Origin: an uncultured Rhodobiaceae bacterium
GTDB lineage: Bacteria > Pseudomonadota > Alphaproteobacteria > RS24
Assembly (NCBI GenBank): GCA_937907245.1
Contig: CALCUM010000002.1
Location: 248,001 to 312,000 of the forward strand
Direction: 5' to 3'
Length of the DNA: 64,000 nucleotides
Part shown: in pieces, positions 61,544 to 61,916 of the stretch
Position numbering within the stretch: the stretch's first letter is position 1
Layout: every line of letters begins with the position of its first letter
Position numbers and translations under genes: made by a program
Notes under the pieces: model-generated
Seen by the model: the letters and a program-made list of their open reading frames with translations, nothing else
What the model was told of the DNA's origin: nothing
The model's database searches: none

Positions 61544-61630
61544 GGCCTCGTGGTGGAATCGGTAGACACAGCAGACTTAAAATCTGCGGCCCGTATGGGC
61601 GTGACGGTTCGAGTCCGTCCGAGGCCACCA
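61544..61630 (+). tRNA. tRNA-Leu (anticodon UAA)
   Basis: An 87-nt class II tRNA with encoded CCA. Acceptor GGCCTCG pairs with CGAGGCC, the anticodon stem CAGA/TCTG carries loop CTTAAAA (anticodon TAA), there is a long variable arm, and the T arm is GACGG-TTCGAGT-CCGTC. It is followed at once by two tandem repeats that copy its 3' end. Confidence 0.97.
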
Positions 61631-61638
61631 TGGCTCCA

Positions 61639-61707
61639 ATGGAAAATGAGATTAATTGGGCACCCGACTACGGGGCTGCGCCCCTTCGCTGGCGAAAGGC
61701 GCACTAA
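61639..61707 (+). other. 22-codon small ORF in unit 1
   Basis: ATG at 61639 opens MENEINWAPDYGAAPLRWRK and two more residues, ending at TAA. The other repeat unit has an equal-length frame. There is no clear ribosome binding site, so translation is uncertain. The stop codon lies at the foot of a hairpin. Kept as a candidate because of the pattern of differences between copies. Confidence 0.35.
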
Positions 61708-61752
61708 GGCAACAAGTTGCCAAGTGCTTTTATCGCGAGGCCAGTGGCTGCA

Positions 61753-61821
61753 ATGGAAAATGAGATTAATTGGACACCCGACTACGGGGCTGCGCCCCTT
61801 CGCTGGCGCAAAGCGGGCTAG
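61753..61821 (+). other. 22-codon small ORF in unit 2
   Basis: ATG at 61753 opens MENEINWTPDYGAAPLRWRK and two more residues, ending at TAG. Against unit 1 it has two silent third-base changes, a stop-to-stop change, and two amino-acid changes. One of the latter falls in the paired strand of the hairpin. Confidence 0.35.
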
Positions 61822-61916
61822 GCCAACCAGTTGGCAAGCCCTTCTAGCGCGAGGCCACCATAGTTAGAATAAATGAGATACGTGCTAGGCGACCCTCTTG
61901 AGGGCTACCGGCTTAT

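Follow-up and report, generated by a model that had tools for sequence, protein, structure and literature searches.

The locus behind tRNA-Leu(UAA)

The window analysed here is a stretch of 64,000 nucleotides (C2:248001-312000) from the genome of an uncultured Rhodobiaceae bacterium (G000). On its forward strand lies a gene for tRNA-Leu(UAA) with an encoded CCA end (61544-61630; ARAGORN, and 59 bits with the Rfam tRNA model RF00005). The motif CGAGGCC occurs at 61620, 61736 and 61850, at and behind this gene, thus marking off two adjacent units of 116 and 114 bp, exactly as the initial annotation had described. That each unit starts with the tRNA 3' end is true of the motif but not of the full CCA: the middle copy reads CGAGGCCAG, and the complete CGAGGCCACCA is found only in the first and last copies. 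Compared without gaps, 61631-61743 and 61745-61857 are 88% identical, which is far beyond chance (blastn E ~1e-36). The differences, 14 in 113 positions, are unevenly spread: the first 64 bases hold 2 of them and the 44-base second hairpin 12 (Fisher p = 0.0003), and most of these 12 are paired compensatory changes.

The features of the two units all lie on the forward strand. The left copy of a direct repeat (61620-61659) consists of the tRNA 3' end CGAGGCCACCA and 29 bp of downstream sequence, a repeat of 40 bp that aligns to 61736-61773. It is followed by the first copy of a 74-nt core element (61662-61735, or G000:C2:309662-309735; 93.7 bits with our covariance model R1). This copy contains a short hairpin (GGGGCTGCGCCCC; 61672-61684, from the consensus fold and pair counts) and a second, longer one (61693-61735) with base CGA/TCG, stem GCACT/AGTGC and apical pairing GGCAAC/GTTGCC. 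The second repeat copy (61736-61773) starts with CGAGGCCA, exactly at the element's right end. Next comes the second core copy (61776-61849, or G000:C2:309776-309849; 91.0 bits), with its first hairpin at 61786-61798 (consensus fold and pair counts) and its second at 61807-61849 (base CGC/GCG, stem GGGCT/AGCCC, apical GCCAAC/GTTGGC), where both sides of the stem are altered relative to copy 1. The third copy of the tRNA 3' end, CGAGGCCACCA, followed by a diverged remnant of the repeat (AATAAATGAGAT), occupies 61850-61860.

A mini-element of about 115 bp that keeps the tRNA functional had been proposed for this locus. A family of small elements does exist and the flanking duplications leave the tRNA complete, but the mobile core measures only about 74 nt (61662-61735); what remains of the 115-bp unit is mostly a duplicate, about 40 bp long, of the tRNA end and the sequence behind it. 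The reported lack of an integrase was borne out as well, with no PF00589 match within the window and all matches in the genome lying outside it. Repeated insertion, on the other hand, is not the likeliest origin of the two units. Because a close relative (G005) has a single unit at the same gene, resembling the window's unit 2, they are most likely a tandem duplication of one; the locus would most simply reflect an insertion and then tandem duplication of the unit. Other insertions at the same gene did occur in other species, as described below.

Fold and distribution of the core element

The core of about 74 nt (consensus GCCGACTTCGGGGCTTCGCCCCTTCGCTGGCGCAAGGCGCACTAAGGCAACAAGTTGCCAAGTGCTTTTAGCG, from 20 aligned copies) has conserved ends, GCCGACTT...CTTTTAGCG, lacks coding capacity and folds into two hairpins, the first short, the second long and imperfect. 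Across the 20 copies 93.5% of the cells in this structure are paired, and both sides have changed in a compensatory manner in 16 of its 20 pairs. Double-change cells number 64, against 19 expected from shuffles, and the pairing is lost when the partner is shifted by 1-3 columns. The sequence CTTTTA stands after hairpin 2. Some copies (e.g., L085 and L086) are missing the first hairpin, and the second may therefore be the minimal unit. No Rfam family matches the core at the gathering threshold.

Copies elsewhere, which the initial annotation had proposed to seek, were found both by blastn and with a covariance model built from the aligned core copies; they form a dispersed family that is often situated behind tRNA genes. 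Searching the same genome with the units yielded more copies behind tRNA-Ser(CGA), and the relatives gave many more. The covariance model has 23 matches in the window's genome, some of them overlapping or in tandem arrays, and 2-24 matches in each of the 12 sampled genomes of the genus, all of which carry the family, G007 with few copies and G009 with many. There are about a hundred copies in all, many of them from fragmented metagenome-assembled genomes. In sister genera copies are rare and sporadic, and a wide distribution can be dismissed, as only 4 of 386 genomes across the class have the family. In a pattern search, the named records that matched were exclusively alphaproteobacterial metagenome bins. 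Carriage by phages was likewise considered and rejected, since patterns for two element variants found no match in 2.9 million viral contigs.

Gene ends, flanking repeats and unfilled sites

Genus-wide, a tRNA gene lies within 60 bp in 25 of 92 clusters, mostly with the element on the tRNA 3' side, and 13 clusters have an end at an offset of 0-2 bp from the tRNA 3' (CCA) end. By our estimate from about 40 tRNA genes, such genes and their 60-bp flanks make up well under 1% of such a genome. In the window's genome six of seven sites are tRNA-related: four clusters touch a tRNA (Leu, Ser-CGA, Ser-GGA and Thr) and two further ones (L090 and L088) lie beside pieces of tRNA-Met. The remaining copies in the genus are mainly found at the 3' ends of protein genes, typically between convergent genes, and some at terminators. 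The strong concentration at tRNA 3' ends thus agrees with the targeting that had been suspected, but these ends are not the only sites occupied. Part of this position bias will be due to purifying selection; nonetheless, elements join the CCA exactly and are in excess at tRNAs relative to other 3' ends, which suggests that tRNA ends are really targeted.

Two arrangements recur. Either the element is codirectional with the gene and followed by a repeat of the gene's 3' end, or it is reversed, with its right end abutting the tRNA 3' end, as in the 13 clusters at an offset of 0-2 bp. Reversed copies that abut the CCA have no flanking repeat, and the tRNA-Ser(CGA) genes of G000 and G004 have had their encoded CCA replaced. 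Convergent protein genes often take their stop codon from the reversed right end of the element (CGC TAA); at L104, L116, L118 and L120, from several species, the convergent gene concerned is apparently the same one.

Pieces of tRNA-Met deserve separate mention. At L090 (G000:C2:219300-220900) the 3' half of tRNA-Met(CAU), from the anticodon on and without a 5' half, adjoins an element copy at about 672-720 of the locus. Tyrosine recombinase genes at C2:212561 and C2:186678 suggest that an island displaced the half gene. At L088, L136, L139 and L143 (G000, G001 and G005) the element lies within an apparent duplicate of part of the initiator tRNA-Met 3' end, behind the intact tRNA and its terminator.

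Flanking repeats were assessed by comparing 60 bases on each side of 98 copies and counting direct-repeat scores of at least 12. Such repeats flank 24% of the copies, compared with 0.6% of flank pairs taken from different copies and 1% in an inverted-flank control; about three quarters of the copies have none. Their length varies from 12 to about 100 bp, and in nearly all cases the right repeat copy starts exactly after ...TAGCG or ...TACCG (gap 0). By inspection, no consistent rule of microhomology between element end and target emerged, except for a frequent CAAG at the start of the right repeat.

Filled and unfilled versions of the same site occur among the relatives. The 3' end of a gene that we take to be lepA from its C-terminus is unfilled in G003, G006 and G007; in G009 it carries an element with a 49-bp repeat (1 mismatch), and in G008 a separate element whose repeat of about 66 bp starts at another base. 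The gene at L108 lacks the element in G006, G009 and G011; G002 has one there, together with a 24-bp repeat that matches exactly. As for tRNA-Leu(UAA), no element is present in G006, G009 and G010. G003 and G008 share a different insertion that repeats TCCGAGGCCACCA, behind which G008 has a reversed copy too, and in G011 a reversed copy follows immediately after CCA. These element-free sites support insertion.

The duplicated coding ends tell a second story. Between the two repeat copies of seven coding-gene cases there are 37 third-, 6 first- and 3 second-position changes, amounting to 38 synonymous versus 4 non-synonymous codons (p ~1e-10), and four of the seven carry most of the differences. 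Synonymous divergence of this kind means that both copies mostly diverged as working gene ends, and recombination or import of gene tails is thus also involved. At L101 (a gltD-like gene), L130, L066 and L186 the gene-end duplicates flanking the element differ almost only synonymously, a pattern pointing to an exchange of alleles between species; cases so strongly diverged are not what simple duplication and decay would give. Either the upstream gene later gave way to another species' allele, the element serving as anchor, or incoming elements bring a foreign gene tail with them. L066 is a mosaic in which 26 identical bases stand beside a strongly diverged stretch, which would fit later recombination.

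Origin of the family and relation to known repeats

We conclude that this is a real, lineage-specific family of mobile hairpins whose insertions restore gene ends. More specifically, it is probably a genus-restricted, non-autonomous family of mobile two-hairpin elements that insert at gene 3' ends and are kept where the host gene stays complete. What was observed is the family, its conserved fold, position bias and flanking repeats, and filled versus unfilled sites; we infer that an enzyme or a replication/repair process moves the element in trans. New copies would enter at terminators and at the 3' ends of tRNA and protein genes, the right end of the element being joined precisely to a position within the gene or at its very end. 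When element and gene are codirectional, the sequence from this join point to the left junction, 12 to about 100 bp long, would come to lie on both sides, and copies would persist where the host gene remains complete. For tRNA-Leu, tandem duplication of the unit would have come after one insertion, and later the second hairpin of one unit may have been swapped for another common variant of the family. The great and variable length of the repeats and the absence of three candidate enzyme families lead us to favour copying by strand invasion or template switching at a displaced strand over a transposase making staggered cuts. With two modes, repeat-flanked and reversed at CCA, a single insertion rule does not cover both.

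The absences concern three domains. Neither Y1_Tnp (PF01797) nor the reverse transcriptase domain RVT_1 (PF00078) was found in any of 28 genomes of the order, in searches whose controls were detected, and no rve integrase was found in the 12 genomes of the genus. RAYT/REP systems, reverse transcription and rve integrases were rejected as movers on these grounds. Tyrosine recombinases number 1-5 per genome and presumably include XerC/XerD; the window's genome has some beyond such a pair.

Whether the chemistry itself is undescribed is a narrower matter, on which we are tentative and lean slightly against: a precise right end with a long gene-rebuilding duplication, or exact reversed joining to CCA, could be the work of host replication/repair or of an as yet undescribed enzyme, in streamlined bacteria where reverse transcriptase, Y1 transposase and rve integrase were not found. 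Bacteria commonly carry small hairpin repeats for which no mover is known, but the insertion chemistry of such repeats can seldom be seen. In the present case the mechanism becomes testable, thanks to about a hundred copies, the element-free sites of relatives, exact ends and long gene-rebuilding duplications. The family also represents a way of colonising essential tRNA genes without breaking them, and possibly a route for swapping gene tails between species.

The best-surviving alternative, although unlikely, is a functional structured RNA, such as a terminator or a stabiliser of mRNA or tRNA 3' ends, that is selected at these ends and spreads by homologous recombination between species rather than by transposition. 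The strong covariation, the position of almost all copies at 3' ends or between convergent genes, the CTTTTA behind hairpin 2 and the stop codon that the antisense end CGCTAA offers to convergent genes are all in keeping with it, and the synonymous differences of the duplicated coding ends are a sign of such recombination. However, recombination alone neither accounts for long repeats whose start coincides with the element's end nor explains the separate lepA insertions with different repeat starts; both orientations behind the same tRNA gene and the commonly unfilled sites in relatives also speak against this reading.

A conventional miniature transposon, be it a DDE MITE, a REP-type repeat moved by a Y1 enzyme or a SINE-like repeat copied by reverse transcriptase, is improbable. 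The element is small, non-coding and dispersed, its ends are precise and direct repeats flank it, and unusually long target duplications have a parallel in the IS1202 group, 1.5-kb insertion sequences with a transposase and target duplications of 16-28 bp (PMC10132070). In contrast, the present element comprises 74 nt, its repeats run from 12 to about 100 bp instead of the short, fixed length typical of MITEs, and the domain searches came up empty for Y1_Tnp and RVT_1 in the order and for rve in the genus. REP, BIME and REPIN sequences are likewise short imperfect hairpins, non-coding, dispersed, genus-specific and found at 3' ends or between convergent genes, but no Y1 (TnpA_REP) gene accompanies our family within the order, its flanking repeats are long, and the GTAG-type tetranucleotide at the hairpin foot is not conserved (alignment A1). 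Rickettsia palindromic elements, which have no known mover, likewise belong to an alphaproteobacterial lineage and are palindromic, small and mobile; they insert in frame inside protein genes, whereas the present copies are situated at or close to the 3' ends of genes and come with duplications, a distinction of position.

Less probable still are remnants of tRNA-targeted integrative elements, in which the repeats would be attL/attR sites of tyrosine-integrase elements that were later deleted. As in such islands, a tRNA 3' end is duplicated at the junction; the repeats hold tRNA 3' ends and gene tails, tail replacement accounts for the synonymous divergence, and both the additional tyrosine recombinases in the window's genome and the displaced tRNA-Met half beside the copy at L090 fit. 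Yet the same core of only 74 nt at dozens of unrelated sites exceeds the range of any single integrase, and no integrase gene adjoins the copy in the window.

The tyrT 178-bp repeats encoding rtT RNA are known from one tRNA locus in Escherichia coli and Salmonella (Rfam RtT). Like them, the window has units in tandem that immediately follow a tRNA gene, each with a tRNA 3' end, in variable number (copy-number variation of the tyrT repeats: PMC2658671), whereas the core described here is dispersed in about 20 copies, has two hairpins with covariation and shows no RtT match in sequence or structure at the gathering threshold. A single local tandem duplication of that type is therefore refuted for practical purposes, despite the two units each with a tRNA 3' end, by the core's presence at many other sites and genomes. 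The family is previously unnamed and, for REP-type repeats, Rickettsia palindromic elements and tyrT/rtT alike, lacks some of the defining features that were tested; in the open-access literature (subscription journals being outside our scope) we found no description of a mini-element of tRNA 3' ends or of such a family.

Some minor observations concern individual tRNA genes. Behind tRNA-Ser(CGA) in the window's genome (L035 1880-2600; G000:C3:940379-941100), a reversed element precedes a tandem series of five units, each of about 123 bp, in which hairpin 2 occurs along with a hairpin 1 that is reversed and has another spacer. Element copies of equal score lie behind tRNA-Thr(GGU) at two contig ends (L086 1-245, at the start of G000:C2, and G000:C3:1041669-1041752), and the assembly appears to break inside a tandem array at this gene. 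Lastly, in the genus-wide list, tRNAs of class II, whose variable arms are long (Ser, Leu and Tyr), seem over-represented among the tRNAs that bear elements.
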